62,516 nucleotides of DNA from a virus (IMGVR_UViG_3300023199_000083:1-62516); one strand, 5' to 3'. Counted from the stretch's first letter, positions 2,613 to 56,060 are shown. Made by a program: numbers and translations. The notes: generated by a model from the letters alone, not told the origin.

Positions 2613-2640
2613 GAATGGCTCAATCATCCAGGGAAAGGAC

Positions 2641-4176: not shown

Positions 4177-4179
4177 CCC

Positions 4180-4978: not shown

Positions 4979-5110
4979 CCAACACGAAAGGGCACGTTGT
5001 CTATCGCGACCAGGAGCGGTGGGCCGGCAAGTAGTGGACCCTGAACTACATCCCGAAAGAACTCTTGGGCTTGATCCGCCAGCTTCCAGACGACCCGAAC
5101 GAGGCTAAGT
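4979..5110 (+). other. Protein-like open frame interrupted by an amber codon
   Basis: Between the terminase genes one frame reads NTKGHVVYRDQERWAGK, TAG, then WTLNYIPKELLGLIRQLPDD to a stop at 5135. Codon choice looks like real coding sequence but there is no start codon. It may be a decayed small gene, or evidence that the annotated terminase start or this stretch contains an error. Confidence 0.3.
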
Positions 5111-5113
5111 TAC

Positions 5114-7123: not shown

Positions 7124-7377
7124 TGGCCGAGCATTGCCTGACATGCCTGCACATGATCGAGCGCGGACCCAATACCATCCCGCTCTGCAACCAGTGCTGG
7201 GTCGAGTTCAACAAGCTACCGCTCTCCAAGCGGATTCGGATCGGGGCACAGCTCAGCGACACGATGGCGAAGCAGGACGCGGCGCGTGTGGCAAGCGAGT
7301 TCATTGCCGAGATCAAGCAGATGTCGGAACTGGCGCGGGCCAGTCGCGACATGCGAGGCTGGTTCGGGCAGAATTAG
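7123..7377 (+). CDS. Small zinc-binding-like protein
   Basis: 84 residues, coupled to the terminase by a TAATG overlap. CLTC near the N-terminus and CNQC about 15 residues later form a likely treble-clef or zinc-ribbon knuckle, followed by a helical region ending MRGWFGQN. Last gene of the + strand packaging unit; its stop overlaps the stop of the convergent glycosyltransferase gene. Function unknown. Confidence 0.55.
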   Translation: MAEHCLTCLHMIERGPNTIPLCNQCWVEFNKLPLSKRIRIGAQLSDTMAKQDAARVASEFIAEIKQMSELARASRDMRGWFGQN

Positions 7378-8084
7378 CGATCTAAAGAAAGTTTAACCCA
7401 GTCCCGATCCCATCTCGCTTCCAGTTTGTCCACATGCCGCGCAGGCTTGGACGCCAGATTGTCGAACGACTGCCCCCGTGCCGACAAGTGCCACGCATTC
7501 GGCCGATACTGCCACCGATAAATGTAGCTCGGCGGCGCGCCGTCTTGCAACGGGTCGCCTTTCCGCATCTTGGCCTGCTCGAACCGCTTTCGCAACCCCT
7601 GGTCCTGCCCGGACTGAATCCATGGATAGCCGTTGACTGCCGCAAATGCCGACCGAGTGAACGCCCACGACCCGTGAAACAGAGCCGAATTGCTCTTGGC
7701 GAACATCGGACGCGATCGCTTTTGGAACAGGATGCGGCTCGGTATCGCGTAATCGTGCCCGGCCCGGATCGACTCTACGCACTCCGACACGTGATGCGGC
7801 AAGTAAATATCGTCATCGTCCCACACGCAATACACGTCCGCGTCCGGGGCGGCCAGTGCTGCCGTGGCGTTACGCTTCTCTCCTACGGTACGGAACCGGC
7901 GATGGCTAACAACCAGCCGCACGCCGCGATTATGGTAATGTTCCAGCGCATCGGGTCCGTACTGGCCCGCATCGTCCAGCACAATCAGCTCCCGCTTCGG
8001 ATAGTCCTGGCGCAAGTAGGACTCGATCGCCTCAGCCAAGAACTCCGGTCGTTTGTAGGTACAGCAGATGCAAGCTACCTTCAT
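7374..8084 (-). CDS. GT-A family 2-like glycosyltransferase
   Basis: 236 residues from the ATG at 8084 that overlaps the upstream stop (TAATG). The N-terminus ACICCTYKRPEFLAEAIES, followed by ELIVLDDAG, is the nucleotide-sugar binding fold of GT2 enzymes, and VWDDDD supplies the metal-binding DXD motif. The C-terminal half (NGYPWIQSGQDQGLRKRF) resembles acceptor-side motifs of this class. Last gene of the glycosylation cluster. Sugar and acceptor are unknown. Confidence 0.8.
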   Translation of the reverse strand: MKVACICCTYKRPEFLAEAIESYLRQDYPKRELIVLDDAGQYGPDALEHYHNRGVRLVVSHRRFRTVGEKRNATAALAAPDADVYCVWDDDDIYLPHHVSECVESIRAGHDYAIPSRILFQKRSRPMFAKSNSALFHGSWAFTRSAFAAVNGYPWIQSGQDQGLRKRFEQAKMRKGDPLQDGAPPSYIYRWQYRPNAWHLSARGQSFDNLASKPARHVDKLEARWDRDWVKLSLDR

Positions 8085-8968
8085 TACCAACCGCTCCATT
8101 TCCCATATTGGTAGTCAGATCGGCATGGCAATAAGTGCGGGTCTTGCTCTCGATAATGGACATGGAACCGACTATGCACGCAGTTCCGGCACGATTGCGG
8201 AATCGGCACGTCACCCAACGTCCGAATCGGGTTCGTGGGATTGCCAAACACAATCTTGTTAGCCGGGACAGAAACGTCTTCGATTCCATCCAGAATCCCG
8301 TTTAAGTCCTTAATCCCGCCCGCCATCGCCTGCCGTATCTTGTCTCGCCACACCAGCCGCTCATCGGACTTGACGCCCTTCGCGTGCATGAACACGACTT
8401 CCGGCCAGCGCACGGATCGAACAGGCGTCTCCGGGCGGGTGAACGTGCCGTACACGCGCCAATTCAGGTTCGGTGCCTTCTCCAGGTCCACGTAGATGTG
8501 GCACGGGTCATGGTGCGGGCCGTCGATCCCGCGTCCGGTGCCGTGCTCGAAATCGCCCCACGCCTCGATCAGCCCCAGCCGAATCACCGGGTCCGGCGAC
8601 TCGATCATCGTCTCCAGATCTTGGACGCGGCTCTCGTACAGGATATCGTCCGCGTCGATGAACAGACAATGCCTCGCGTCGACCTGCCGAGCCCGACGCA
8701 GAAGGAAGTTCCGCGACTCGCACCATCCCGCGTCGACTCGCTCCGGCGCGTCACCGGAACACACGTCGAATCCACGGATGACCTCGACCTTGTGCCGAAC
8801 ATCTTGCCGGACCTGGTTTAGGAACCATTCCAGCTCGCTCAGCCGGTCCACGGAATTGTCGTCGAACACGATCGCGCACTGGACGTGGTCCAAAATGCTG
8901 TCCAAGCACACGGACAGGCTGTACGCATCATTTTTGCACGGAATCAGTGCTGTCAGTGGTAGAGTCAT
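8084..8968 (-). CDS. GT-A glycosyltransferase
   Basis: 294 residues. TALIPCKNDAYSLSVCLDS then AIVFDDNSVD is the GT2 start, and CLFIDADDILYES contains the DXD-like metal site. The C-terminus carries a Cys/His cluster (CRNCVHSRFHVHYREQ, then C) that might bind zinc. Its start overlaps the neighbouring glycosyltransferase gene by 41 nt, so the two are likely translationally coupled. Confidence 0.78.
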   Translation of the reverse strand: MTLPLTALIPCKNDAYSLSVCLDSILDHVQCAIVFDDNSVDRLSELEWFLNQVRQDVRHKVEVIRGFDVCSGDAPERVDAGWCESRNFLLRRARQVDARHCLFIDADDILYESRVQDLETMIESPDPVIRLGLIEAWGDFEHGTGRGIDGPHHDPCHIYVDLEKAPNLNWRVYGTFTRPETPVRSVRWPEVVFMHAKGVKSDERLVWRDKIRQAMAGGIKDLNGILDGIEDVSVPANKIVFGNPTNPIRTLGDVPIPQSCRNCVHSRFHVHYREQDPHLLPCRSDYQYGKWSGW

Positions 8969-9695
8969 CTATTGTGTCGCCGCCAAACAATGGAGTCGTT
9001 CGCCCGTTCCAATTCGCCGCCTTCTCCATCCCGGGCGTCTCCAGATGAAAAACGCGGTAGTTTCTGAATACGTGCCGATGCTTCTTCGGCCATAGTCCGG
9101 CGAACCACATGTCCGACTTGCTCGCGGCATTGTATTCCGGATACGGCCTCGGGTGCATCGGGTAATGCCACAAGTGGAAATAGCCCGGCGGCAGCTTCGT
9201 GTAGATTTTGCAGGGCGGGAACTGCCCGTATTCTTCCCCGGCCTGTAGCCCCTCGTGCTCGATCAAGCCATAGAGCCGGTTCAGTTCGTCCATTCCGACC
9301 ACGGCATGGCGCCGAGCATGATACAGCCACCGCCTGCGGGGCAGCTCGGGAATCGGACTGGTCAACAAGATGTCCGCGTCCAGGTGCAGAACCCAGCCCG
9401 TCTTGTCGAGTGCATCAAGCCCGATGTTTATTCCCGCGCCTTTGTTGAACTTGCACGGCTTCCCGTTGAAGCGATAAAACTCGTCCGTCTGCCGCACTGT
9501 CACCTTCTGCGTATATCGTCCGGCCAACTCTACCGTGTCCAGATCGTCCTGGTCCGTTACGACAGCCACCCGATCCACGTACTGGATCAAAGCAGGCAAC
9601 GTGTGCTGCAAGTAGTCCGCGTAGTTGACGCACACAACCACCGCTTCGATTTCCTCGAACTCGATCACCGACTTGTTTCTATCCACCGCCGACAT
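8928..9695 (-). CDS. Glycosyltransferase-like protein (GT-A)
   Basis: 255 residues. AVVVCVNYADYLQHTLPAL followed by VAVVTDQDD is a GT-A nucleotide-binding start and VLHLDADILL holds the DXD motif. The following FNKGAGINIGLDAL matches proteins that track sugar donors rather than nucleotidyltransferases. Its 5' end overlaps the methyltransferase gene by 17 nt. Acceptor unknown; cluster context suggests joint modification of one glycan or protein. Confidence 0.72.
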   Translation of the reverse strand: MSAVDRNKSVIEFEEIEAVVVCVNYADYLQHTLPALIQYVDRVAVVTDQDDLDTVELAGRYTQKVTVRQTDEFYRFNGKPCKFNKGAGINIGLDALDKTGWVLHLDADILLTSPIPELPRRRWLYHARRHAVVGMDELNRLYGLIEHEGLQAGEEYGQFPPCKIYTKLPPGYFHLWHYPMHPRPYPEYNAASKSDMWFAGLWPKKHRHVFRNYRVFHLETPGMEKAANWNGRTTPLFGGDTIDDSTTDSTDSVQK

Positions 9696-10302
9696 TCCTC
9701 ATAATGAAGCTCGGGAATATATCCTTTTCCGGGCTGGATGCGACCTCGACCAGCCTCCAATCGCTCTCTCGCTCGAACTGCGCCACCGCCTCGATCACGC
9801 CGTAATTGCGCTTTTTCGCCCAGCGGCTGCGGTCTTGTGACACGTAATCGTGACCGGCAATGACCCCGTCCGGCTTGACGATCACGTTCGCGGCACGCAA
9901 GTCTTCCAGGGCAGCGTCGTACCGGTGGTCGCCGTCAATGTAAATCCAGTCCAGGCTCGGCACCATCATTCCGGTCGAGGGGCGCATAGTACAGAATGCC
10001 TCGAATACGTCGTCCAAGACGCTCCTGATGATAAGCACTTGCCCGGCTCGTATCTCTTCCTGGAATCGATCGGCCACTCGACGATAAGATTTGTAATGCT
10101 CTTCTTGGCTCACATCCGGCCACGCATCCCATTCCTTCCAAGGGTCGACCAGGGCCATCGTTTGCGGCTGTGTCGCCTCCATCAGCAACGCCGCGTTGTC
10201 TCCGTTCTGGACACCGACTTCAACACCAATCCCGCCCTTGGGAAGCGTTTCCTGATACAGCTCCAGCCTCGTCTTGCGCGTCTTCTTTACAGTTCCACCC
10301 AC
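9679..10302 (-). CDS. Class I SAM-dependent methyltransferase
   Basis: 207 residues from GTG 10302, chosen for the AAGGAG five bases upstream. GIGVEVGVQNGDNAALLME is the SAM-binding glycine loop, and LDWIYIDGDHRYDAALEDL with VIAGHDY is the signature of the methyltransferase 24 type that acts on sugars and small metabolites. Embedded between glycosyltransferase genes, so it probably methylates a transferred sugar (inference). Confidence 0.78.
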   Translation of the reverse strand: MGGTVKKTRKTRLELYQETLPKGGIGVEVGVQNGDNAALLMEATQPQTMALVDPWKEWDAWPDVSQEEHYKSYRRVADRFQEEIRAGQVLIIRSVLDDVFEAFCTMRPSTGMMVPSLDWIYIDGDHRYDAALEDLRAANVIVKPDGVIAGHDYVSQDRSRWAKKRNYGVIEAVAQFERESDWRLVEVASSPEKDIFPSFIMRNVGGG

Positions 10303-10994
10303 TCGAACTCCTTGTCTTTGTGATAGGCCAATGTCTGAAACACCACGGCTTCCGTATCGACCAGTGCCTCCAAGTTTGCGACAGCCATTCGCACCCCGTA
10401 TTGGTCGCTGTCTCGGACACTCTTGGAATAACTGGTCGCCGCCAGTTTGTAAATCATGTCGCACCACACGGGGGCGCCCATCAGTCCGCCGCTGTTCCCG
10501 TATTGGTACGCGCCCTCATACGGACCGGCCGGGCAGTCTTCCGGGTAGTTTCCTCGTTCCGCTGACAGCAGTGACAGATTGAAGATCGCTGCCGCAGCAT
10601 TACTGACAACAGTCAGCACATGGAGATTGAATACAGCGTCCGAATCAGTGAACAAAACCCGCCACACATTATCAACTCCCTGAAGCGCGTTCCGTGCAAG
10701 CGTCGTTTTCATCAGGTTTGACCACTGGACGCCCTTTTCCGGTCGCAGAACCGTAATCGGTATCCCCCACCACGCGGCCGAGATTTCTATCGGAGTCGTT
10801 CCGGGTTCGTAGCTCGACCACGTGAACACTTTCAGTCGCTGCTCATCGAACGACTGCGGTTCCGGCTTGGGCTCCTTGTGCCGGTCCTGCAACTGCTGCC
10901 AAGTCCGCTTGATGTTCGCGAGCTGTTTCCGGCCCCCGTTCGCGTGGATCAAGACGGGAATGTTCCCGGTCGTCAGGCTCTTAAGCGCTTTCAT
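10287..10994 (-). CDS. PLOD/GT25-like glycosyltransferase
   Basis: 235 residues. VLFTDSDAVF carries the DXD motif and YGNSGGLMGAPVWCDMIY matches the NSGG-hydrophobic-G motif of lysyl-hydroxylase-associated glycosyltransferases. WWGIPITVLRPEKGVQWSN fits the donor-binding part. Its start overlaps the small gene next to it by 14 nt, and its 3' end overlaps the methyltransferase by 16 nt, typical of a tight operon. Confidence 0.65.
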   Translation of the reverse strand: MKALKSLTTGNIPVLIHANGGRKQLANIKRTWQQLQDRHKEPKPEPQSFDEQRLKVFTWSSYEPGTTPIEISAAWWGIPITVLRPEKGVQWSNLMKTTLARNALQGVDNVWRVLFTDSDAVFNLHVLTVVSNAAAAIFNLSLLSAERGNYPEDCPAGPYEGAYQYGNSGGLMGAPVWCDMIYKLAATSYSKSVRDSDQYGVRMAVANLEALVDTEAVVFQTLAYHKDKEFEWVEL

Positions 10995-11181
10995 TCAGTA
11001 TTTCGTCAATATAACGCTGCACCCTATCTACCAGGTCCGGCCTTGGATACTCTTCCGCCTTTTCGTGGCTTAGTCCAGCGCGGCGCAAGAACTCCTTGTA
11101 TTCCCCAACATGCACCGCTTTGATATTCCCGGGCGCGGTCGGGTCCGGAATAAATCGGTTTCCGGAATTGCTGTACTTCAT
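10981..11181 (-). CDS. Small protein in glycosylation cluster
   Basis: 66 residues from the ATG at 11181, which overlaps the stop of the upstream GT-B gene (ATGA). Sequence KYSNSGNRFIPDPTAPGNIK then charged helices. No known domain. The overlap on both sides argues that it is translated with the glycosyltransferases, perhaps as an accessory subunit. Confidence 0.5.
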   Translation of the reverse strand: MKYSNSGNRFIPDPTAPGNIKAVHVGEYKEFLRRAGLSHEKAEEYPRPDLVDRVQRYIDEILNESA

Positions 11182-12755
11182 TCTTTCGTCACAGAATCTA
11201 AAAGGTTTTTCCACTCATCACCGAATATAACCGGGTCCGCCAGCTGGTTAACACGATTTCTGGCCGCTTCCGCAATCGTCATCCGCAGCCGCTCGCTGCG
11301 CTGCAATTTAGACAGGCACGACACCATGTCCTGCATGTCAGTGTACAGCATCCCGGTTGTCCCGTGCTCCAGCATCTCGGTCCAGCCGTAGTCGTTCGGA
11401 GCCACGACCGGTACCCCGTGCGCCATCGCCTCCAGCCCGACCCGAGGCCAATTCTCTTTCGCCGACCCGTTCAGGCCCAGCACAGCGTGACATTGACGCA
11501 TAAAGTCGGTCGCCGGAATCTCGTTCGGCTTGTACGTCTTGGCCCATCGCGGAGGGGTTCCGACCTGGGAAAGCGTCTGGTGGTCCACGCCCATCATCAG
11601 CAGCCGTTTCGGGTTCGGAACCTTGCCGACGTACCGAAACATCTCCTTGTGCCATTTGTCACGCGCGGCCCGCGACAGCTTGCCCATAACGAACTCTTCG
11701 CCGGACAAGTGCGGTCGAGGCCGGTACTCGTACAGGGACACATCGAAGCCGCCGCGAATCAGCCGGTACCGATCGCGAGGCACAAGCGCACCGAGCGTCT
11801 TTTGCAGCCGCCGCATCTGGAACTGGCTCTGGCACACCATCGCGTCCGGCGGGCCACAAGCAGTATACCACCGCTGCTCGTGCCCGAACGGCCACGTCAT
11901 GCAGTTCAGCCAGATGATCGGGCACCCCATGTCTCGCAGCACCGTGGCCGCTCCCGATTCGTAAAAGTGCGAGTTGCAGAACGACACAACTGGAGACCCG
12001 GCTAATCGTGGTATCGACCGCAGGTGCCGCTCCACGTCCCGTGGGCTGATTGTAACCGTCTTGGCCAGGAGCGAGTCCATCTCCGGCTGGTATCGCTGGT
12101 TCGGCCGCCAGGTGGGAATCAGCGTCACTTCAATGCCAGCGCGACGCCACAGCCGGATCGAGTGGTAGGCTTCCGTAGACGCACCGCCAACATCGCCCGG
12201 ATATCCGACCATAACCAGACGGTACGGGCTCCTGTCCTCGCACAAGCGGCAATTCGCGGTCGATTTCGTGTTAACTCGGCCGATTGCGCAGGTATTATGA
12301 AGGGTACAGTCGTAGGTAGAGAACAGTTTCCCGCGATAGGGGCAATTGCTGCTCTGATCGGCCCCCGTGGCCGATTCCGAGCGGTGTCGGCACTCGAACG
12401 CCTTCGGGTTGTGCCAATAGTCCGGTTGGCTGGTCAGGTCGGAAACTGCGACGCTGGGCGGCTTTTTGGTCTTTTCCGGTGCGGCGAGCGATTGCCGAAC
12501 CAGACGCCGGTGCATGACCTTGGGAACGAACTGGCCGTGTTTTTCCAAGAGGTCCGGCACGCGGTCCATGTCCCCGGCTCGGCGCAGTGTGTCGATTGCG
12601 ATCAGGACCGTGGTCCGGTTGATCCCGCGAGACTGGTTCTTGTCCGAGATACAGTCACGGCAGTTCGGGACGTTCGCGGCCACCATCCGTCCGGCTAGCT
12701 CCGATGCTACCCGGCAGTGACCCATTTTCAAGTGAGGACATTCGACATGAACCAT
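11178..12755 (-). CDS. GT-B family 4-like glycosyltransferase
   Basis: 525 residues from ATG 12755. The first 190 residues are Cys-rich (CPHLKMGHC, CRDC, CRHR, CPYRG, CRLCED) and may form zinc knuckles. The remainder is a GT-B enzyme: VMVGYPGDVGGAST, then ENWPRVGLEAMAHGVPVVAP, the C-terminal donor-binding motif of GT4, and GTTGMLYTD. First gene of the glycosylation cluster, at the distal end of the virion operon. Donor unknown. A TTG at 12806 is an alternative start. Confidence 0.78.
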   Translation of the reverse strand: MVHVECPHLKMGHCRVASELAGRMVAANVPNCRDCISDKNQSRGINRTTVLIAIDTLRRAGDMDRVPDLLEKHGQFVPKVMHRRLVRQSLAAPEKTKKPPSVAVSDLTSQPDYWHNPKAFECRHRSESATGADQSSNCPYRGKLFSTYDCTLHNTCAIGRVNTKSTANCRLCEDRSPYRLVMVGYPGDVGGASTEAYHSIRLWRRAGIEVTLIPTWRPNQRYQPEMDSLLAKTVTISPRDVERHLRSIPRLAGSPVVSFCNSHFYESGAATVLRDMGCPIIWLNCMTWPFGHEQRWYTACGPPDAMVCQSQFQMRRLQKTLGALVPRDRYRLIRGGFDVSLYEYRPRPHLSGEEFVMGKLSRAARDKWHKEMFRYVGKVPNPKRLLMMGVDHQTLSQVGTPPRWAKTYKPNEIPATDFMRQCHAVLGLNGSAKENWPRVGLEAMAHGVPVVAPNDYGWTEMLEHGTTGMLYTDMQDMVSCLSKLQRSERLRMTIAEAARNRVNQLADPVIFGDEWKNLLDSVTKE

Positions 12756-13010
12756 GACAGGATTATCATCAGAACCAGGGGGCGGCACAATAGGCGCTCG
12801 GGCCAAGTATCAATTTTGGGTGTGATTGTCATGGTGGCAGTCGGGCTGGCCGTGGGAATGGCCCTGTTCGGCATGATCGTCGACAACCAGAGCACAAAGA
12901 GAGTGTTTAGCATGTTTCCAGAGTATCCTTTTGTCCGGCCATTTGCCGAGCATATATGGGGTCCGCTGGAGTACCCGCCCGCTACGCCAGACGAACTCAA
13001 CGCGCGGTAG
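12747..13010 (+). CDS. Small single-pass membrane protein on the opposite strand
   Basis: 87 residues, ATG preceded by GAGGA. A basic N-terminus (DRIIIRTRGRHNRRSG) precedes one membrane helix (VSILGVIVMVAVGLAVGMAL) and a soluble tail. It is the only + strand gene inside a 24-kb - strand operon and overlaps the neighbouring gene by 9 nt. Translation is plausible from the hydrophobic pattern but not certain. Confidence 0.45.
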   Translation: MNHDRIIIRTRGRHNRRSGQVSILGVIVMVAVGLAVGMALFGMIVDNQSTKRVFSMFPEYPFVRPFAEHIWGPLEYPPATPDELNAR

Positions 13011-13015
13011 CCTTG

Positions 13016-15247
13016 CTACATCACGCCGCCTCCCACGGCCCCGCTGCTGCTTTGCGGGCAGTCTACGCACTCGATCGGTATAACTGATCTATACCCACGC
13101 CCGACAGTAGTTTCAATTGTTCCCGCTGGCGGTGACGCCGTTCCCCAGCAGGCATTAAACCGCATCGTTACCTTGAACGTCGTTGTGGACCCAGCAGCGA
13201 GGCTGAAATCCCACTCGCCCTCCGGGTCGGCATTTGTCAGGGGCGATGTAAGCCGGTCAAGCGGGGGATCGCTCGATATGATCTCAACGTCGAATCCTGC
13301 ATCACCGTCCGGAGTCAATCCGAAATACATCGCGCATGTGTTGGACCCATTCTCCGGACAAGGATCCCAGGCAAACGCTTCGTTGTTCTTGACATCGACC
13401 TCCAGCGTAAACTCTTCGCCTGTACATACCGGATTGGGTGAATAGCTTATCGCGGTCGCACCAATATCGACGCCCTGTCCAGTATCATCAAACTCTGCCG
13501 CCCCATGCTCCATGCACGATTCACACCCTCCCTCGCTACTACTTTCCTCCTCGCTGCTACTCTCATCCCCACAATCACAGCACCCGATCTTTTCCCACGT
13601 GCCAGGCGTTTTATCCAAGCAGCCGTTTTCATCAATAATCAGCACAACCACGCGCTGAAACAGTTCCCCGTTCACACAGTCGGTCTCAAGCATCTCGATA
13701 TCTGGACACGGCTCCGGCGGCTCTTCGCTGCTACTGTCCTCGCTACTGCTCTCCTCCTCGCTACTGCTCTCCTCCTCGCTGCTGCTTTCCGAATCGCAAC
13801 AGCCAAACAGATCGCCGAAGATGCAGACCTCGTATCTGTCTGCATCTTCGTAGTACTTCGCCAATCCGAATGTGCCTTGCGGAACCTTTGGGTTCCGGTC
13901 GTGCAGCTTGGCCCATTGCTCGACTACCCCCAGCGCGTCATGCACTTCAAAAAAACAGTTGACCGGGCACGTCTGCCCATCTTCGTGCCGGACGACCTCC
14001 GCCAGCGCCGACGTACACGGCTCCAGGCTCTCTCGCAACACAAAACGCCGAAACGCATCCGGTTCGAGCGGATTCACCGTCTGGCTCAGTTGCGTATTGG
14101 GAGCAAAGTTCTCCGGAAGGCCAATGACCCTAGTCGTTACTCGCCGCTCCTCGGAATCTTGGGCGTCATCGACTGTGTAGATGATGCAGTCGTCCGCACC
14201 CGACGGCGACAGGCTGGGGATGCCGATATAAGTCACGTCGATATGTCGCGACGACATCGACAGCCAATCGGTCGCCCACTTATCGGCCAGCGCGTCGAGC
14301 GTTGACTTGTTCAGCGGGTCCGATTCCGCCGTAGCGTCCGCTGCAAAGTCCGCCCAAGCGGTCGAATGGACAGTGACCACGCCTCGCGTGTCGGTCCCAA
14401 CGTTCCGTTCGTAGGTCCAGTCCCGAACCTGCTCGCGGCACTTCTTGGACCGGAACACCATTCGGACCCCGGTCGTTCGGGCCGAGCGAGTGTACGCCCC
14501 GCCAGCGATCACCGGGCCGGGGGCATGAATCGGCGTGTGACGAGCCGCCAGAACCTGCTCCGTGCCCAGTGCGCCCAGCAGCGCGACAGATCCCGTCCGC
14601 GTCACCACCACGCGGCGGCCTGTCGAATGGGCCACTATGTCCAGCAGCCGCGCCGCGTTCATCCTCGGCCGAAACAGCTCGACCGGATCAGGGGCCAGAT
14701 ACGAACCGTCAACCACGCCCGGCACAAAGGTCTGGTTAAGGGACTCGCCAATCTTTAAGATCAATGCGGGCCAAGTCTCCAAATCCGACAGGGTGGGGTT
14801 AACGTGCCTGAACTGCCAAAAGTACCTCTGGTCCACAACGGGCAGCACCCACGCCTTTTTGTTGCCCGAGACCGCCGTCATTTGACGCGGAGCGAGCGCA
14901 AACACCCGGAAGGGTACTCCGGATATGGTCAGGCGAAGAGGCGTCGTAGAGGCGATTTTAGACGCCACATCGGACAGAATCGAATCGTTGACCAGGAAGT
15001 GACCGTAGGCCCATCGAGTCGCACCGGTTGGCCAAACAAGCTGGTTCAGCTTCGGGTGGTGGAAAGGTGGGTAATTTATGTCGGGGGCGGTAACTGGCTG
15101 GTCCCATTTGCCAGCGTGTTCCCATCGCCCGTCATCGTCGGAGAACGTGGGCGATTCCGGGTACTGGTCCGGGGGCTGGAACTGGTCTCGGAACTGCTCA
15201 AGGTCCGGGGCCGAATAAAGCGCCTGTTTGCCGTCGATCAGGATCAT
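13016..15247 (-). CDS. Large tail-tip protein with Ser-Glu linkers
   Basis: 743 residues. The first ~430 resemble a baseplate-hub type protein (LNQLVWPTGATRWAYGHFLV, then RLLDIVAHSTGRRVVVTRTG). The second half is modular: Cys-bearing segments (FGCCDSE, CCDCGDE, GCESCMEHG) joined by runs of SSSEEE repeats at about 13535-13555 and 13725-13790, and a C-terminal beta domain ending QSSSGAVGGGVM. The Ser runs could be O-glycosylated by the adjacent cluster (inference). Confidence 0.65.
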   Translation of the reverse strand: MILIDGKQALYSAPDLEQFRDQFQPPDQYPESPTFSDDDGRWEHAGKWDQPVTAPDINYPPFHHPKLNQLVWPTGATRWAYGHFLVNDSILSDVASKIASTTPLRLTISGVPFRVFALAPRQMTAVSGNKKAWVLPVVDQRYFWQFRHVNPTLSDLETWPALILKIGESLNQTFVPGVVDGSYLAPDPVELFRPRMNAARLLDIVAHSTGRRVVVTRTGSVALLGALGTEQVLAARHTPIHAPGPVIAGGAYTRSARTTGVRMVFRSKKCREQVRDWTYERNVGTDTRGVVTVHSTAWADFAADATAESDPLNKSTLDALADKWATDWLSMSSRHIDVTYIGIPSLSPSGADDCIIYTVDDAQDSEERRVTTRVIGLPENFAPNTQLSQTVNPLEPDAFRRFVLRESLEPCTSALAEVVRHEDGQTCPVNCFFEVHDALGVVEQWAKLHDRNPKVPQGTFGLAKYYEDADRYEVCIFGDLFGCCDSESSSEEESSSEEESSSEDSSSEEPPEPCPDIEMLETDCVNGELFQRVVVLIIDENGCLDKTPGTWEKIGCCDCGDESSSEEESSSEGGCESCMEHGAAEFDDTGQGVDIGATAISYSPNPVCTGEEFTLEVDVKNNEAFAWDPCPENGSNTCAMYFGLTPDGDAGFDVEIISSDPPLDRLTSPLTNADPEGEWDFSLAAGSTTTFKVTMRFNACWGTASPPAGTIETTVGRGYRSVIPIECVDCPQSSSGAVGGGVM

Positions 15248-15255
15248 GTCGGTAT

Positions 15256-15777
15256 TTAGTCCTCATCGCCGATCAGGTTCCAGTCAAACACGATAGAAAA
15301 GCCGATCTGGATCGAAGCGTGCTGCCTTGCGTCTCGAATAACGTTCCAGTCCTGCGGGAACGGCGGCTGGTTCAGTATCTGCTCACCGAGTTCGTTCAGG
15401 ATGTCTCGGTCATCGCCGGTGAACGCCTTCAGTGCCTTTGTGGCCAGGCGGTACAGTCCGGAGCCGCGGCGGTTGAGAATCTGGTCGGCATGGTGCGGCT
15501 GGTCCATCTGGCTCGCGGTGTGGATTGTGACCACGATCGTCGACATGCACGTGGCCTGGAACTCGGCCCCGCCGTCGTACATTCCCGCATCAAAACTGCC
15601 TCGTCCTCCGTCGCTGATCACACACCAGATCGGATGAAACGATGCGCCCGGTGTCGGTGGCTTGGCGTCCGGGTTATCGCTGATGAAACACGTCTGGCTC
15701 TTGAGTCCGAGCTGGAACTGCATGCGCTCTCGGAACGCCTTTAGCACCTCGGGAATTAACGTGTCTACGCTGGTCAC
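15256..15777 (-). CDS. Tail completion/terminator-like protein
   Basis: 173 residues beginning TSVDTLIPEVLKAFRERMQF. The length, a helical N-terminus followed by beta strands (MSTIVVTIHTASQMDQ; QIGFSIVFDWNLIGDED) and position in the tail operon resemble tail-terminator or minor tail proteins. No catalytic motif. Assignment is by context. Confidence 0.45.
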   Translation of the reverse strand: MTSVDTLIPEVLKAFRERMQFQLGLKSQTCFISDNPDAKPPTPGASFHPIWCVISDGGRGSFDAGMYDGGAEFQATCMSTIVVTIHTASQMDQPHHADQILNRRGSGLYRLATKALKAFTGDDRDILNELGEQILNQPPFPQDWNVIRDARQHASIQIGFSIVFDWNLIGDED

Positions 15778-15819
15778 TCATCAGCTCCCGTGTGGCGCCA
15801 GTTGGCACAATGCCTGTTA

Positions 15820-17457
15820 TCAACTGCTACTCGAATCACCCACGTCGTCCGGTATTGTAGGCGAGCTGGACACCGGGAACAGCCGATCGGTCTGTCTCAG
15901 CCGGAAAAACCGGTTCATCCACTCGTGCAGCACGCCCTGCCGCCCATTGCTGTTGTCAATCTCCGCCGTGTCGCCCATCTCAAAGTTGTCCAGGCCCGGG
16001 AAGATCGCCACATAAGGACCGCCCGGGTACAGTCGCGTTGCCGGTGACAGCGCCACTTCATCCACAAACACACTGGTTCCGCTCGACACGGCCGTCGTCT
16101 GCTTGATCCGAAAGTATACTCGACCCGGGAGCGTCTTGGGAGTCCGAAACGAGCCGGTGGAGTACGTCCAATCCGAATTCGACAGCGACGTTGCGTCGAT
16201 CGTGAAGCTGTTGGCGTTCCCTTCGTCGTCCTGGATCACCGACCCGCCCACGCCGTCGACCAGGGCCACTTCGATAACGCCCGCCGCCGGTACCACGTCC
16301 ACAATCGCCGGGACACATGCCGCATAGCTAAGGGACGGCTCCAAGTTCACTTCCTGGCTCAGTTCCGTCAATTGCGCCCCGTCCGCATCGAATTCGACGG
16401 CTCGAGCGCCGCGGATCACGTTGGCCGACCCCGCCGTGGTCGTCGCGTGTCCGATCGAGCCGGTGTCCAGATCGTTGACGCTGGTGAGCTGGTTTGGGTC
16501 CGGCACGCCGTTAAACGTGATCGTGTGCGTAAAGTTCGGGCTGGTCCCGGTCGTTTCGACGGCCACGGCACCCAGCCCCGGCAGGGCTTGCAACGCGGCC
16601 TCGACAGCCGACTGGTCCCCGTCCCAGGCGATCGGCGACGTTTCGTGTGTCTTGCTATTTCTATCCTCGAACCGGAGCCGGTAGAAGCCTTCGGTCGGGC
16701 TACCTGATATCGTGACGGTCTGGACCTCGATCGGGGTCATTTTCAAGGTCGTCCCAAGCGTCGCCACCGCAGCCTGCCACTCCAGCGGCAAATCGTCCGC
16801 CTGTGCGTTTTCGTCTTCAAAGTCGGCGTTGACCAGCCGGTTGTTGCCGCCGGTAGCCACGCGGCTTGTCAGGCTAATGCTTGCCCCGCTTCCGTCTGGC
16901 CAGAACGGGTCCAGCTCCTCCCGTGTTCGCTCGCCGGAGATCGTCCAGGTGACCGAGCCGTCGTTATTGACGCTGCTCACCTCCAGTTGCACATCCTCGC
17001 CGTAGACGAACTCGCTGACCTTGCCATCCACCCGCCGCAAGCTGACCTCGATCGCGCCTTCCCCTTCGTTCCCGGCCCCGAAGCTGACCGAGCTGGACAG
17101 GGTGCTTTCTTGCAGAGTCTCGCTTTGCCGATCGAATTCGTCGATCAGCCAATCGATCGCGTTGTCGATCCGCTTCGGTGTCTGCTCCGACTCCGCTGCC
17201 ACCGACTCAATGATCAGCGTCGACATGTTCCGCGTGATCGACCCGCCCAGAAACGAGCGAGCGTTGCGGGCCATGGTGTCGACAGCGCTTTGCAATCCGT
17301 CCGTCGAGCCGTGAATCGGCATCGACTCCTGATCGAACAGGTCGGAAAACAGCTTGATATTCGCGCTGAGGCTAGGCCCCGAAGCGTCCAGCAATCCGTC
17401 CGCCGCGTCGAACATCTTCCGAAGGCGGGTGAATAGTTCAGTTAAGTCAATCGCCAC
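15820..17457 (-). CDS. Tail structural protein with Ser-rich C-terminus
   Basis: 545 residues. Helical N-terminus (IDLTELFTRLRKMFDAADG), then a series of beta-sandwich-like segments (GSASISL-type; carbohydrate-module-like SLSYAACVPAIVDVVPAAG; TLPGRVYFRIKQTTAVSSG). It ends DDVGDSSSS, sharing the acidic Ser tail found on four other virion proteins here. Possibly a distal tail or adhesin component; family not recognised. Confidence 0.6.
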   Translation of the reverse strand: MAIDLTELFTRLRKMFDAADGLLDASGPSLSANIKLFSDLFDQESMPIHGSTDGLQSAVDTMARNARSFLGGSITRNMSTLIIESVAAESEQTPKRIDNAIDWLIDEFDRQSETLQESTLSSSVSFGAGNEGEGAIEVSLRRVDGKVSEFVYGEDVQLEVSSVNNDGSVTWTISGERTREELDPFWPDGSGASISLTSRVATGGNNRLVNADFEDENAQADDLPLEWQAAVATLGTTLKMTPIEVQTVTISGSPTEGFYRLRFEDRNSKTHETSPIAWDGDQSAVEAALQALPGLGAVAVETTGTSPNFTHTITFNGVPDPNQLTSVNDLDTGSIGHATTTAGSANVIRGARAVEFDADGAQLTELSQEVNLEPSLSYAACVPAIVDVVPAAGVIEVALVDGVGGSVIQDDEGNANSFTIDATSLSNSDWTYSTGSFRTPKTLPGRVYFRIKQTTAVSSGTSVFVDEVALSPATRLYPGGPYVAIFPGLDNFEMGDTAEIDNSNGRQGVLHEWMNRFFRLRQTDRLFPVSSSPTIPDDVGDSSSS

Positions 17458-17467
17458 GGCATGGCTC

Positions 17468-19273
17468 CTAAACGACCGCTTGATAGTCCGGCGTATTCGG
17501 CCTCTTCTGATTCGTCGGCGGCAACCCCTTGGCTATCGCCGGCAGGTCCTTGAACATCGGCGCAAGCCCGGCCGGGTACTGGTCCCCGCTCCGAACTGCC
17601 CGGTCAAGTGCATACGTGCCGTCAAAGTGTATCCCATACAGCACCGCTCTACCATCCGCCGACAGCACCGGGTCGTTCAGGACCGGCTCATGGCGCAATG
17701 GCCGAGTCGTGATCCCATTTAAGTCTGTAAACGTTTCGAATCCCGGTATTTCCGGCCATTCGTTGACCCGCTCCGCCTCAAGCGAGATATCCCGCAGCGT
17801 CATCGGCCGAAACATCTCAATTTGTACCGACTCCACGCCCGAAGCACCAGCCGCGACCGGCAGGTGGGCGATCCCGGACTTGTTCCGAAGCGTGGTCGTC
17901 ACGTCGTAGCGGAGATAGCCCGTCCCCTCGGTCCTGTTTTCGAACGGCATCGACACCTGGTAATCCAGTTCGTCCTCGTATCCCGGAACGTCTTTTCGAT
18001 CGCCCTTGGTGTCGCCCTCTTCAATCTCCTCTGTGGGGGGAAACTCAATTACCGGCCCCATCGGGCGCGAATACAGATCGAACGGACCACACGAATCTTG
18101 GTACAGCACATGCCGAAATATCCCTCGAAGACCCGCCGTGAAGAACGGAGCCACAAACGTATTGACGATTGGAAGCGGAGGATTCTCTGCGAACGTTAAC
18201 TGGTCCTCATCTCCCGCCTGCGGCGCGGTTCCGGCCCATATGGATCCGTCTGTATGCTTTATCGTTGCCGACGCATACGCAACCGTGTCATGCAGGTCTT
18301 CGCCGATCTCCGCATGTTGCACGAAATTCCGGTTGGTGAACAGGAATATCCGCGTCAGATGCAATCGCATTTCCAGAATTTGGTACGCCAACGACGCCAG
18401 TCGCGACTTCGACTCTTGGGGGTTTCCTTCCACGCGGACATTGACGGTGCTTTCCGCCAGCGCGCTGTGAGGCTGCGGAAACACAATCTTGTGCGATGCC
18501 GTCCACTTGAGCGCTGGCAGCGGTGGGTAGACGGCAACCTGCCTGTCTTCGAACGTGAAGTCCAGTGTTAGGCCATCTTCACTCTCTTCTGCGCTGTAAT
18601 TATAACGCTTAAACCCGAACGTTAATGGCGGGATGAACCATTCTTTGAAGGAGTGGACGCCCACGTCTGGACTTGCTACGCGCAAGCGGCCTCGGTATCG
18701 TCGAGTCGTGAACCAGCGTTCGTCCAGCGTCTCCGCTTGCCACATCTTTAATGACAAGATATCTGGACTCGTTCTCCCACCACCCGCGCCGCAATCCAGC
18801 GGCCTCACAAACTCAATATTAAACTGTATCCGCGCCGACTTGTCATTTACAAAATGGAGCAGTCGCGGGCTTGGCTTCGGGCCGTTGTCAATGTCCATTG
18901 ACGGACGATTTACAGAAGTGGTGCGCATTATCTTTTTTCCAGCCGCCTCCAGTACAGTGGTGCTGTTAATGCGCATCTGAAAATGGCCTTGCGGCTCACT
19001 AAGAGATGCCAGAAGGCGACTAGCCCATCCGGAGCCTTGCGAGTTCAGTGTATCGCCCACGACCCTAATCCCAAGTCGCTCATGGTCCGCCGGCTCGACT
19101 TTATTACTCGCGTAAATGATCCCATGCGCACTGAGAGTTGTTTTCAGGGCCATAGGATTCGCTTTCGATGCGTCCATGATCGGCTCTTGAACGATCGACT
19201 CGATCATTACATTGTGGATGCGCACTGTGTCGCTCGAGCTGGGTCCAGCGCGATACACGATTTCTGTTGCCAC
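17468..19273 (-). CDS. Tail protein downstream of tape measure
   Basis: 601 residues from GTG 19273 with AGAGG upstream, directly after the tape-measure stop; a longer ORF to 19441 would overlap that gene heavily. Beta-rich sequence with YRAGPSSSDTVRIHNVMIES at the N-terminus. Part of it (RINSTTVLEAAGKKIMR) is encoded by a 69-bp segment that recurs at 31770-31838, where it codes for an unrelated peptide from the other strand. Probably distal tail or baseplate. Confidence 0.65.
   Translation of the reverse strand: MATEIVYRAGPSSSDTVRIHNVMIESIVQEPIMDASKANPMALKTTLSAHGIIYASNKVEPADHERLGIRVVGDTLNSQGSGWASRLLASLSEPQGHFQMRINSTTVLEAAGKKIMRTTSVNRPSMDIDNGPKPSPRLLHFVNDKSARIQFNIEFVRPLDCGAGGGRTSPDILSLKMWQAETLDERWFTTRRYRGRLRVASPDVGVHSFKEWFIPPLTFGFKRYNYSAEESEDGLTLDFTFEDRQVAVYPPLPALKWTASHKIVFPQPHSALAESTVNVRVEGNPQESKSRLASLAYQILEMRLHLTRIFLFTNRNFVQHAEIGEDLHDTVAYASATIKHTDGSIWAGTAPQAGDEDQLTFAENPPLPIVNTFVAPFFTAGLRGIFRHVLYQDSCGPFDLYSRPMGPVIEFPPTEEIEEGDTKGDRKDVPGYEDELDYQVSMPFENRTEGTGYLRYDVTTTLRNKSGIAHLPVAAGASGVESVQIEMFRPMTLRDISLEAERVNEWPEIPGFETFTDLNGITTRPLRHEPVLNDPVLSADGRAVLYGIHFDGTYALDRAVRSGDQYPAGLAPMFKDLPAIAKGLPPTNQKRPNTPDYQAVV
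18922..18990. repeat. 69-bp repeat, copy 1
   Basis: Matches 31770-31838 in the same orientation with two A/C differences. Here it is inside the - strand tail gene, while copy 2 is coding on the + strand. Confidence 0.9.
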
Positions 19274-19275
19274 AA

Positions 19276-20502
19276 CTACGGACCTCTTCTGTTTCGAGGA
19301 ACAAACTGCTGGCCATTTTGCCGCCAATCCCGCTCTTGCTCCATAGTGGCCCTCGCAAGCGTAGCCCCAAGGTCCCGAAATGCCGCATTGACATTTGCAT
19401 CGGCTGGCCGCCCCACGCCGGGGATTCGTTCTATCAGCCACGCTAAGGCCCTGACATGCGGAATAAGCTCAACTATCTTGATCGCGACAGTGCCCAAATC
19501 CGCCAGCCTGGCCACTGCAACGTTCATAACGCCCTCGAACCGGTTCTGCCATGGCTGCACTGAGTCTCGCAAGTCGTCCAAAGATTCCTGGCGATCGCGA
19601 ACGGTGTGTCCTATCTGCTCGCCGGTTCTAACATTCCGCTCGATGGATCTATACTCGCTTTGCAAATAAGCGACACCTATCTCCGCGTTGAACTTCACCA
19701 AGTGTTTGTGTGACTTTTCTAATTCCTCGCCCCATCGCCTGATAATGAATGGCATTTCGAACGGCAGCTTTGCCTGGTCGACGACTGCGCGGGCTCGCGC
19801 GAACGGGTTCGGCGAAACAAGCGCCTGGCCCGTATTCCTTACAACGCGCCGGGCAACACCCTTCCCCTCGCTAAATACTTGAGACCCGGCAGGGCTAAGG
19901 GACTGTATAACGGACGCCCGCGTTTCATCCTGCCTGGCGCCGCGCCTGCGTCCCGCGACCGTTGCCGCTGTGAATACAAAAAAGTCGGCGATCTTGTTTA
20001 GTACAATGCCCTCGATTCGCCTGCCTATCTGCTCGCCGATCCGGTCACCACCGCCGCCACCGCCGCCACCACCACCGGACCCTCCTCCGAATGAGCCGCC
20101 GCCACCACCACCGCCACCGCCTCCCATGCCCCCGCCGCTGGCGCCTCCCCCAATACCACTCAGCGCATCGCGCAGCGCTGCGCCAAATCCACCTCCGGGT
20201 TGCGGTGCCGATGATGTCTCGCGGCCGCCCCGGACGTATTCGGCTTCAACTACGTCGTCGGAGCCACGTCCTCTCCCTCCCGATCCGAATATGGCACTGG
20301 CAACGTCGACGGATGTTTGAACAAACTCTGCTGTTGACCTGCCAGAGGACCGGGCTACTTGCCCTGAAGCCCCTGCCGCGCCGCTTCTGGCGCCAGCACT
20401 TGCGCCTGCGCGAGCGCCGACGCTTGCCGCAGTTCGCGCGCCAGCCCCGCCAAGCAGCCTGCCGAGCGACCCAAGAAGTGCCCCTGCCAATGGTGCAGCC
20501 AT
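19276..20502 (-). CDS. Short tape-measure-like tail protein
   Basis: 408 residues. Ala/Gly-rich N-terminus with hydrophobic helix, a Gly-Ser linker about 30 residues long (encoded at 20040-20160), then long amphipathic helices (KSHKHLVKFNAEIGVAYLQ; RTGEQIGHTVRDRQESLDD) and hydrophobic segments. It follows the frameshifted tail chaperone, the standard tape-measure position. At about 1.5 angstrom per residue it would set a tail near 60 nm (inference). Confidence 0.6.
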   Translation of the reverse strand: MAAPLAGALLGSLGRLLGGAGARTAASVGARAGASAGARSGAAGASGQVARSSGRSTAEFVQTSVDVASAIFGSGGRGRGSDDVVEAEYVRGGRETSSAPQPGGGFGAALRDALSGIGGGASGGGMGGGGGGGGGGSFGGGSGGGGGGGGGGDRIGEQIGRRIEGIVLNKIADFFVFTAATVAGRRRGARQDETRASVIQSLSPAGSQVFSEGKGVARRVVRNTGQALVSPNPFARARAVVDQAKLPFEMPFIIRRWGEELEKSHKHLVKFNAEIGVAYLQSEYRSIERNVRTGEQIGHTVRDRQESLDDLRDSVQPWQNRFEGVMNVAVARLADLGTVAIKIVELIPHVRALAWLIERIPGVGRPADANVNAAFRDLGATLARATMEQERDWRQNGQQFVPRNRRGP

Positions 20503-20504
20503 GT

Positions 20505-20794
20505 CTAGCCCTCCGATCCAAAATCAAACTTTGGCCGCGACGCTTCCAGTTCGTCCTGGTGAGCGCGCCACAGGCCGTCGGCGATCTCCGGGTCTTCGTG
20601 GATACTTCTGAACCAGGCGCGGCCTAGCTCCCCGGTCATCCCCGCGTGAACTCCTCGTTGGTAGGTGCTGATTCGCAGGGCGTTGACGAAGTCGGCGTTG
20701 AGGACGAGTCCGACTCGGGTGATGGGGCTGATTTTGTCGAGGATTCCGGTTCCAAACGTGGCGACCGCTTCGGCTGCGGGCCTAGTTTTTTTTT
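20505..20794 (-). CDS. Tail chaperone frameshift extension (-1 frame)
   Basis: The A-run at 20786-20794 (nine A on the coding strand, GTT AAA AAA AAA C) allows a -1 slip. The -1 frame then runs open for 93 codons (TRPAAEAVATFGTGILDKIS, later AWFRSIHEDPEIADGLWRAH) and stops at 20505, just before the tape-measure ATG at 20502. This is the arrangement of lambda gpG/gpGT. The 0-frame continuation is low-complexity Ser/Pro/Glu. Confidence 0.8.
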
Positions 20795-21148
20795 AACCCA
20801 TTCCATGTACGCCAAGTACTCCATCAAGACCGCTCGGACCTCCATCATCGTCAGCCCACGGCCTTTATGGTCCACTTCCGGGATGCCGAACACTTCTCGG
20901 CCAAGTCGCACAGTATCCGCCAGTGCTTCGTCGCGGTCCGTGTCGGGAAGGTGTTCCGCAGCTGCTACACGCTCGCAAGCGTAAAGATCGATCTCTTTGT
21001 GGTTCATTATCTCGAACCATACCGCGAGCGGGTCGATGCAGCGATACCGCACCCCGTCATGGTACCAGAACAGCCACGACTTACGCCGCCTGTTCAGTTC
21101 GAATTTCAACCGCCGCCATAATCTCAGCATCACCGCCACCCCAGACAA
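20636..21148 (-). CDS. Tail assembly chaperone (0-frame product)
   Basis: 170 residues. The first 121 are shared with the frameshift product and include FWYHDGVRYRCIDPLAVWFE and RGLTMMEVRAVLMEYLAYM. After VKKK the 0-frame gives a Ser/Pro/Glu-rich tail. It lies between the tail tube and tape measure genes. Known family role: the short form and the frameshifted long form coat the tape measure during tail assembly. Confidence 0.75.
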   Translation of the reverse strand: MSGVAVMLRLWRRLKFELNRRRKSWLFWYHDGVRYRCIDPLAVWFEIMNHKEIDLYACERVAAAEHLPDTDRDEALADTVRLGREVFGIPEVDHKGRGLTMMEVRAVLMEYLAYMEWVKKKLGPQPKRSPRLEPESSTKSAPSPESDSSSTPTSSTPCESAPTNEEFTRG

Positions 21149-21673
21149 CTAACTTGAAGAGTCCTCATCCCACTCAAACAATTCGAGTTTATCGGCATTG
21201 TCTCCGGTACCCGGACGCCGCAACCAGCACTCGAACCCTAGCCGGTAGAACCGCGCTCGAGTCCCGCTGTTGTACTCGATCGCCTGGCGAATAAAGCACG
21301 TGTGAAACGTCTTCTTCTCCTTGCCGCCGTTCAGGCGAATCGCCATTGCGATGCCTTCCTGCACGATGAGTCTTCCAAACTCAGGCACCGTTCCAACCGC
21401 GATCGTCGCATCGTCGGTGAACGTCTTGAGCTGGTCGAGCTGGTCTTTCTCGTACTTGGTCAAGTCCAGGTTCAGGTTCGCGATCGCACCTAGAAACTGT
21501 GTGTCGCTCGGAACGCCTCGCTCGCCACCGCGATCGTCCGTCGCAATATCGAAATAACGTGGCTCGATCCGTACCGGAACCCCATCGCGAGTGAACCCGA
21601 TTGGATCGAACGCCCCCCCGGATTTTTGTATCTCGACGAAAACCGGGCCCTCGTAATAATGGGCAATGGCCAT
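21149..21673 (-). CDS. Major tail tube-like protein
   Basis: 174 residues of beta-rich sequence (GPVFVEIQKSGGAFDPIGFT; VPVRIEPRYFDIATDDRGG) with a central NLNLDLTKYEKDQLDQL, resembling siphovirus tail tube subunits. It immediately precedes the tail chaperone gene. The C-terminus is EWDEDSSS, an acidic Ser tail shared with other virion proteins in this operon. Confidence 0.68.
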   Translation of the reverse strand: MAIAHYYEGPVFVEIQKSGGAFDPIGFTRDGVPVRIEPRYFDIATDDRGGERGVPSDTQFLGAIANLNLDLTKYEKDQLDQLKTFTDDATIAVGTVPEFGRLIVQEGIAMAIRLNGGKEKKTFHTCFIRQAIEYNSGTRARFYRLGFECWLRRPGTGDNADKLELFEWDEDSSS

Positions 21674-21676
21674 CGA

Positions 21677-22189: not shown

Positions 22190-22205
22190 GGTCACTTTGT
22201 AGTAA

Positions 22206-22244
22206 AAAGACCGCTGCCGCACGGGGGCGCGACAGCGGTCCAGA
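22206..22244 (-). terminator. Rho-independent terminator after capsid gene
   Basis: Read on the - strand: GACCGCTG, loop, CAGCGGTC followed by TTTTT. It lies between the capsid stop (22285) and the connector start (22189). Confidence 0.75.
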
Positions 22245-22284
22245 GGCGGCGGCACCTCTCCAACACAGTTGGGGCTCCTGTCGC

Positions 22285-23346
22285 TTAGGCCGCGCTACTC
22301 GACGAACTCAACGGGTTCTTGATGAGTGCGCCGGCCAGCGGTGCCGTCAGGACCGGAGCGAAGTCGTCCACGACCCGAGTCCATTCCAAGCGGTTGTCCG
22401 TGTCGTGCTTGGATTCGACCGTCAGTTCTTCTTTCATAAACAGCGTGGCCGTCGAGAACGACGGGGCTCCGTCGATCCCTTCCAAGCCGCCGGGACGCGA
22501 CAGCATTAAAATCACATCGTCGCCCAGCACGTAGTTTTTCTGCACCGTCGAGGCACCTTTTCGCGTCGGTACCCGAACGGCATCTTCGACCACGATCCGG
22601 TAGTCGTACAGGGTTTCCGGGAAGCCGAACTGGGCGAGCGGGCCGAGGTTGCCCACCAACGTTTCTTTCGCCGCGGGCGATTGCTTTAAGTAGTCACGAA
22701 GTTCTTGCGTGACCGACAGCTGCCGAGCCACGGTAGGATTCATCACGACGACCAGCTGATGTCCCTTGACCGATCCGAGCGTTTGCAGCTTGATCTGGTC
22801 GGCCATGTGGTCCAGCGCTCGCTTGATGTCGGACCGATTCACCGTCGATTCGTCAAGGAACCCGGTCACGCCTTCGATATCGACCACGTCCTCCACGTGC
22901 CCGGTCGGATACGCCGACTCATTCAGCAGCACATTCAAGGTCCGCATCGTCCGCAACGTCATAGCCACCTGCGCGTTATGGCGCGACGCCTGGGCGAGTA
23001 GCGGCCAATCGGCCTGTTCCGGCGCTTCCTGCGGGTAGCTGTCCGTCGGCGCAAATCGCTGCGTCTTGTACGGCTTGAACTCGAACGACTCGCGATGACC
23101 CTTGCCGCTGGGCGCCGGGTCGCCATAGGGCCAGGCGTAATCGGCACCATCATCGGCCAGAACGCGGCCCGCCTGTTCGATCGTCATTTCAATGTAGAGG
23201 CCGACGTTTTTGTCGACCTTTACATACTGGACATAGCCGGGCAGCGCGAACTCGCGCGGGTTCCGGCTAAAGTCGATCACCAGGTTGTTTGTCGCGTCCG
23301 TATTCGGAACGAACGTGTTATAACCTGAAGGGAACATTTTCGGCAT
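22285..23346 (-). CDS. Major capsid protein
   Basis: 353 residues. Position after protease/scaffold and decoration genes and flanking by strong terminators fit a highly expressed capsid gene. The sequence has capsid-like parts (GHQLVVVMNPTVARQLSVT; FGFPETLYDYRIVVEDAVR; KNYVLGDDVILML; PSFSTATLFMKEEL) of the HK97-like fold typical of such phages. The C-terminus is NPLSSSSSAA. No N-terminal cleavage site is obvious. Confidence 0.75.
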   Translation of the reverse strand: MPKMFPSGYNTFVPNTDATNNLVIDFSRNPREFALPGYVQYVKVDKNVGLYIEMTIEQAGRVLADDGADYAWPYGDPAPSGKGHRESFEFKPYKTQRFAPTDSYPQEAPEQADWPLLAQASRHNAQVAMTLRTMRTLNVLLNESAYPTGHVEDVVDIEGVTGFLDESTVNRSDIKRALDHMADQIKLQTLGSVKGHQLVVVMNPTVARQLSVTQELRDYLKQSPAAKETLVGNLGPLAQFGFPETLYDYRIVVEDAVRVPTRKGASTVQKNYVLGDDVILMLSRPGGLEGIDGAPSFSTATLFMKEELTVESKHDTDNRLEWTRVVDDFAPVLTAPLAGALIKNPLSSSSSAA

Positions 23347-23401
23347 GGTTCTGGCCTCACTGTTAAATTGGCTCTGTCAGGGCCTTGTTATCACTCAGAG
23401 A

Positions 23402-23824
23402 TTAAGACGACGATTCTTCAGCGGGGATCACAAACGGCGGCATGACCCAGCCGTAAACCTTCTCCCCTTCCAATCCAGCGGTGAACGGCTTGAAGAACGC
23501 GATTTCGCCAGCGTCGGCCACCACGCCTTTTCCTGCCGCGTCCGGGCGGAGGAACTGGCCCGCATCGCAGCCGCCCGACCCAAGCTCCAGAATGGCGTTC
23601 GACCCGAAGAAGCGAACCTCGTTCGTTTCGCCTTCCTCGCCCGCCAAGTTGGAAGTGTTCTGCGGCAGTGGCGCGGCGCCCGAGCCTTCGCCCGTAACGC
23701 CGACCACGTGCATCGAGTTAGCAGTCGCCTGAACCAGCTCGTGGTCCTCGGAGGTTGACTGCTCAACAAATCGAGACGGATTGACATCCCCCCCAAAATG
23801 GAAATTCATCGGATCAAAGGTCAT
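23402..23824 (-). CDS. Capsid decoration-like protein
   Basis: 140 residues from ATG 23824 (TFDPMNFHFGGDVNPSRFVE). Small, beta-rich, Gly/Ala-containing (GVTGEGSGAAPLPQN; AFFKPFTAGLEGEKVYGW), immediately before the capsid gene, like head-decoration proteins. Ends IPAEESSS. A terminator lies directly upstream at 23841-23880. Confidence 0.55.
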   Translation of the reverse strand: MTFDPMNFHFGGDVNPSRFVEQSTSEDHELVQATANSMHVVGVTGEGSGAAPLPQNTSNLAGEEGETNEVRFFGSNAILELGSGGCDAGQFLRPDAAGKGVVADAGEIAFFKPFTAGLEGEKVYGWVMPPFVIPAEESSS

Positions 23825-23840
23825 GGTCTGTCTCCACTGC

Positions 23841-23880
23841 AAAAAAAAGAGCCGGCCTCGCTATTAGCGAAACCGGCTCG
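23841..23880 (-). terminator. Rho-independent terminator before decoration gene
   Basis: On the - strand GAGCCGG, 17-nt loop, CCGGCTC, then eight T. It would reduce read-through from the protease gene into decoration and capsid genes, or define a processed message. Confidence 0.8.
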
Positions 23881-56059: not shown

Positions 56060-56060
56060 C

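Follow-up and report, generated by a model that had tools for sequence, protein, structure and literature searches.

In a tailed phage that probably infects Planctomycetota, short Ser runs at the C-termini of four virion proteins are found together with a large, exchangeable cluster of sugar genes in the virion gene block, and the reading that we favour, with a probability of roughly 0.4, is that the exposed Ser ends and linkers may serve as acceptors for O-glycosylation of the virion. The window (the whole stretch of DNA analysed here, 62,516 bases long) is a virus record, and an earlier note on it had proposed the same strategy. The virion proteins and the adjacent cassette on which that proposal was built were found; a co-occurrence of head and tube tails with sugar genes among relatives was not.

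With a Ser end defined as a run of at least three Ser in the last 10 residues, such ends were found in four of the 14 genes of the virion operon and in none of the 68 other genes of the window. Never more than two genes had a Ser end in 20,000 within-protein resamplings, and among 486 genes of relatives 3 have such an end. The four genes, all on the minus strand, encode the decoration protein (23402-23842, ending in PFVIPAEESSS, tail codons at 23405-23419), the major capsid protein (22285-23346, ending in KNPLSSSSSAA, tail at 22288-22311), the tail tube protein (21149-21673, ending in EWDEDSSS, tail at 21152-21172) and a tail protein (15820-17457, ending in DVGDSSSS, tail at 15823-15840). The claim of acidic Ser runs on these proteins thus stands for the Ser runs, though those of the capsid (LSSSSSAA) and the tail tube (DEDSSS) are short, and it fails for the capsid, the end of which is not acidic. 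The Ser codons are TCG TCG TCT in the decoration tail, AGT TCG TCG AGT AGC in the capsid, TCT TCA AGT in the tube and TCG AGT AGC AGT in the tail protein. These differences rule out that the four tails are one DNA-level repeat, and the mixture of TCN and AGY codons in three of them suggests selection for Ser itself.

The attribution of the tailed proteins to the virion is supported by two predicted folds and a profile match. The model of the decoration protein, built from 25 homologues (pLDDT 92.5), matches in the PDB capsid-associated chains of HFTV1, Pam3, Sf11 and T1, as well as the base of the phi29 head fibre gp8.5; lambda gpD is a weaker match (Foldseek E 6e-6 and VIA Z 15.8 for the HFTV1 chains; Z 12.2 for the gp8.5 base and 6.1 for gpD). 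Its identity as a capsid decoration protein is supported by this predicted fold, common to the decoration proteins of HFTV1, Pam3 and T1, to gpD and to the gp8.5 base. The Ser tail reaches beyond the end of the conserved domain of the family. In phi29 gp8.5 the chain runs on from the base into the fibre, whereas the protein of the window has a short EESSS tail instead; by this analogy it is plausible that the tail points outward. The capsid protein matches PHROG 1005 (major head protein), and the capsids of relatives terminate at about SGxLFTxA. For the tail tube protein (model pLDDT 82, tail disordered), the top matches are mostly tail-tube or neck proteins, lambda gpV and other tail tubes of the PDB among them (Foldseek E about 6e-5 and TM 0.50-0.55 for gpV), which supports a predicted gpV-like tail tube. 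The tail protein has a weak match to PHROG 10909 (major tail protein, E 0.004) and orthologs in at least eight lineages. The gene after the tail tube (20503-21148, minus strand) has an S/T/P-rich end, likewise present in G001 and G006, and a second frame that is open beyond its stop (GRAWFRSIHEDPEIADGLWRAHQDELEASRPKFDFGSEG), an arrangement that resembles the programmed frameshift of a tail assembly chaperone.

The putative tail-tip protein (13016-15247, minus strand), so named from gene order only, has no match in Pfam or PHROG. The SSSEEE linkers ascribed to it are present as two blocks, SESSSEEESSSEEESSSEDSSSEE (window 13721-13792) and ESSSEEESSSEG (window 13529-13564); its C-terminal part reads CPQSSSGAVGGGVM, with QSSSGAVGGGVM at the end. 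The blocks are written in AGY and GAR codons, and compared with the sibling phage G003 the copy number differs by one unit more in block one and one unit less in block two, and for these reasons they appear to behave as an 18-bp tandem repeat. A search of IMG/VR with the SSSEEE pattern returned the sibling and one unrelated protein only. The orthologs in relatives have Ser- or Gly/Ser-rich C-terminal regions: the region is Ser-rich in five distant relatives (G007, G701, G580, G637 and G565), reaching up to about 250 residues, and in G001 the protein ends in a GSGSGSG stretch. Additional Ser-rich proteins are found in the tail modules of G007 and G701. In the five distant relatives the codon type changes between TCN and AGY from one Ser to the next in about 38% to 62% of adjacent Ser pairs, so simple repeat slippage does not explain their Ser-rich tips. 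Poly-Ser as a matter of general host composition was rejected as well, since in a small sample the Ser-rich ORFs that we took to be genuine genes sat in phage tail modules (with the exception of the G007 ORF 55226-57154) and the remaining Ser-rich ORFs were antisense-looking. Our literature search found nothing relevant on Ser-rich or polyserine proteins of planctomycete phages. At and after the tail-tip position, another relative (G1396, of the G1396/G1314 type) has very large ORFs of 1473 and 2441 aa (L129:6-4427 and L129:7585-14910).

The sugar cluster follows immediately downstream of the tail tip, closely packed and on the same strand as the virion genes (minus). Going downstream, its genes encode a glycosyltransferase of group 1 (Glycos_transf_1, GT4-like; 11178-12806; PF00534, 35.5 bits against a cut-off of 26.4), a putative glycosyltransferase recognised by DSD and NSGG motifs only (10287-10994; no Pfam, PHROG or credible PDB-sequence match), a methyltransferase (Methyltransf_24; 9679-10467, with a possible true start at GTG 10302; PF13578, 48.7 bits), a probable GT2-like glycosyltransferase (8928-9695; PF13704, 19.1 bits, below the cut-off of 27.5) and two family 2 glycosyltransferases (8084-8968, PF00535, 23.3 bits, equal to the cut-off; 7374-8099, PF00535, 61.5 bits). 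The earlier count of five glycosyltransferases and a methyltransferase can therefore be upheld for the methyltransferase and for the three glycosyltransferases that reach the Pfam cut-off, while one of the others is sub-threshold and one is without family support. No known peptide-Ser transferase family was recognised, a point against O-glycosylation of the virion. The common strand and tight packing make it likely that the cluster and the virion genes form a single operon, as had been claimed; the promoter- and terminator-like matches are at chance level.

Comparison with the sibling G003 (37.8 kb) reveals an exchange in the middle of this cluster. The two phages are about 99.6% identical over 1584-8968 and 11208-21653 and 99.9% identical beyond, and there is no match between them over 8969-11207 (minus strand). 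In G003 this segment is replaced by a sub-threshold glycosyltransferase-like gene, an FkbM methyltransferase and a GT64-like gene (Pfam), so that a glycosyltransferase-methyltransferase-glycosyltransferase set has been exchanged for an unrelated set of the same composition. Such a functional exchange is consistent with selection for glycan variety at this locus, without identifying the acceptor. Despite the swap the Ser ends are the same in both phages, which would fit glycosylated and unmodified tails alike. Apart from this exchange, the shared 37 kb showed one large difference only, about 2.1 kb of extra DNA in G003 (L017:12550-14660), opposite window position 33203.

The host was approached through the capsid profile, which matched 13 of the 397 genomes from a single class of Planctomycetota and 1 of 392 genomes drawn across the whole phylum; a control phylum, the one to which a Burkholderiales MAG belongs, gave a single fragment (E 8e-4) in 398 genomes. 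A second search was positive in 12 of 376 genomes of one order. This distribution, together with the several matches from the Planctomycetota class that sit within long chromosomal contigs, indicates that the phage family probably infects Planctomycetota and includes prophages, from which we infer the probable host of the window phage itself. Terminase, capsid and portal searches yielded as relatives G003, G001 (59.3 kb, capsid 51% identical to that of the window), G006, G007, L110 and fragments, and the set used for comparison comprised about 25 virus contigs and Planctomycetota genomes. In the phages collection, megablast of the region and tblastn of the capsid, the tail tip and 17468-19441 gave nothing useful. 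The 18 stretches of genome_contigs that matched a terminase pattern were without real homology, and L019/G005, matched by a capsid DNA pattern, proved not to be a relative.

Outside the structural tails, the Mu-type portal protein is fused to extra domains that differ between relatives: in the window (26028-30287, minus strand) these are sigma-70 regions 2 and 4, in G001 there are matches to LPD1, inorganic pyrophosphatase and methyltransferase, and in L110 to ART-PolyVal (portals at L012:10763-19021 and L110:9983-17074). The portal-fused sigma factor could enter the cell together with the DNA. In the large terminase (5114-7123, plus strand), Walker A is split (GGNG/SGKT) by an intein-like insert of about 134 residues, which G001 lacks; the terminase of G011 (L051:3140-7072) has two such inserts, one of them at the Walker A site used in the window. 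A ResIII-type helicase (48736-52545, minus strand) with LAGLIDADG and Hom_end matches inside probably contains an intein as well.

Among the about 25 relatives a decoration or tube Ser end was found only in the sibling, and for the capsid run there is the FSSST end of G1329. In the sequences compared, Ser tails of this kind on decoration protein, capsid and tube are specific to the lineage of the window, and their absence in relatives led us to reject them as a family-wide feature. Sugar genes near the tail tip are found in six lineages, and fast-changing sugar genes at the end of the tail gene block are often present in this phage family. Five relatives have them yet lack decoration, capsid and tube Ser ends: G001 (a group 1 glycosyltransferase, a Stf0 sulfotransferase and a Mannosyl_trans3/FkbM/sulfotransferase fusion), G006 (a group 1 glycosyltransferase), G007 (a cytidylyltransferase and a neighbour without Pfam match), G701 (GT25 and two Methyltransf_24 proteins, one sub-threshold) and G580 (GT25, an epimerase, a C-methyltransferase and GT2). 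The neighbour in G007 (L046:7247-8311), downstream of the Ser-rich tip, is possibly a glycosyltransferase of a new type. The enzymes of different lineages are mostly unrelated: in cross-searches with the sugar genes of the window, G001, G006 and G007, only the group 1 glycosyltransferases of G001 and G006 were linked to each other, and those of the window to the sibling. In G637 and G565, which have the longest Ser regions, reading of the translations found no recognisable sugar gene between the tail tip and host-like genes.

Co-occurrence of tails and sugar genes, which the earlier note had named as support for its proposal, is not borne out for the decoration, capsid and tube tails, missing (the capsid of G1329 apart) from about 25 relatives of which five have sugar genes near the tail tip. 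For the Ser-rich tail tip it points in the expected direction, but weakly. In 14 lineages classed by hand, which are not independent of each other (the window and its sibling counted as one; G421 and G626, where no tail-tip ortholog was found, both scored negative), four had a Ser-rich tip and a cassette, two a Ser-rich tip without cassette, two a cassette without Ser and six neither. A cassette thus accompanies 4/6 of the Ser-rich tips versus 2/8 of the others (Fisher one-sided p = 0.16, with no phylogenetic correction), a weak association.

If the virion is O-glycosylated, the cassette enzymes would be expressed together with the virion genes, presumably late, and would build a small methylated glycan and attach it to Ser residues that the virion proteins of the phage itself expose to solvent. 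As acceptors we propose the flexible Ser ends of decoration, capsid, tube and tail proteins, provided that they are exposed and Ser is the residue used, with the tail-tip SSSEEE linkers as further sites; the benefit might be shielding or altered adsorption. Two points lead us to favour this reading: Ser ends were gained by several virion proteins of a single phage, next to a large cassette that is exchangeable and lies in the virion block, and in Mycobacterium phages capsid and tail tube are reported to carry glycans at their C-termini (Freeman et al. 2023, Cell Host Microbe, as summarised in PMC12619734; also PMC10568470). The tailed proteins are of virion surface types (decoration, tail tube, capsid), and both sugar genes near the tail tip and Ser-rich tips with mixed codons recur. 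Against it stand the cassette-bearing relatives without decoration or tube Ser ends, the two relatives G637 and G565 with no glycosyltransferase seen downstream, the weakness of the association between Ser-rich tips and cassettes, and the acidic and short nature of the decoration, tube and tail-protein tails.

Nearly as likely is that the Ser ends and linkers are unmodified, flexible and hydrophilic, acting as surface spacers and as a long tip linker, and that the sugar genes do another job, because some relatives have a Ser-rich tip but no cassette and others a cassette but no Ser ends. The long tips of G637 and G565 are of the former kind, and the GSGSGSG at the tail-tip end of G001 is a classic flexible linker. 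This explanation, however, does not account for four Ser ends with mixed codons in one lineage beside a large cassette, and for a spacer Gly or Asn would be equally good. We consider it rather improbable that the cassette acts on something else, be it another virion protein or other tail residues, the host cell surface or phage DNA. Known targets of phage glycosyltransferases include DNA and the surface of lysogens (PMC12619734), and G001 and G006 have sugar genes without Ser ends or poly-Ser; the cassette of the window, however, is located inside the virion gene block and not among lysogeny or DNA-metabolism genes, and no base-hypermodification gene was seen among the ten non-structural proteins scanned. 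Phosphorylation or metal-ion binding by acidic Ser clusters is very unlikely: SSSEEE, DEDSSS and EESSS do resemble acidic-directed kinase sites and casein-type clusters, but the window proteins that were scanned include no recognisable kinase, the end of the capsid is non-acidic, and the Ser-rich regions of relatives are mostly non-acidic too.

Should glycosylation of the virion be correct, it would extend this modification from actinobacteriophages to phages of Planctomycetota. One phage would then have attached an acceptor tag of a few C-terminal Ser to several of its virion proteins, and two near-identical phages would differ by an exchange of glycan genes that took place in nature. A broader and more doubtful generalisation is that virion glycosylation in Planctomycetota phages is modular: Ser-rich tail regions of up to about 250 residues would be the acceptors, Ser tags would extend the system to head and tube, and exchangeable cassettes of glycosyltransferases, methyltransferases and sulfotransferases would allow the surface glycan to be changed in one recombination step between near-identical phages. 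Should the virion not be glycosylated, the Ser-rich tail-tip regions would still be a feature that recurs in this phage family without an explanation.

Among known systems, the serotype-conversion cassettes that alter the lysogen surface are similar in being exchangeable phage glycosyltransferase cassettes. The cassette of the window differs from them in its place in the virion block, in its methyltransferases and in the absence, among the six cluster genes, of the expected membrane genes (a GtrA-type flippase and a membrane glycosyltransferase beside the transferase). The virion protein ends of mycobacteriophages are Ser/Thr-rich, unlike the short acidic tails of the window, which, the capsid apart, consist of 3-5 Ser after acidic residues. 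In addition the phage of the window, with its probably planctomycete host, has a tailed decoration protein and a tailed tail protein. What it has in common with virion glycosylation in mycobacteriophages is that the phage encodes glycosyltransferases and that the C-terminal ends of its capsid and tail tube are candidate acceptors.
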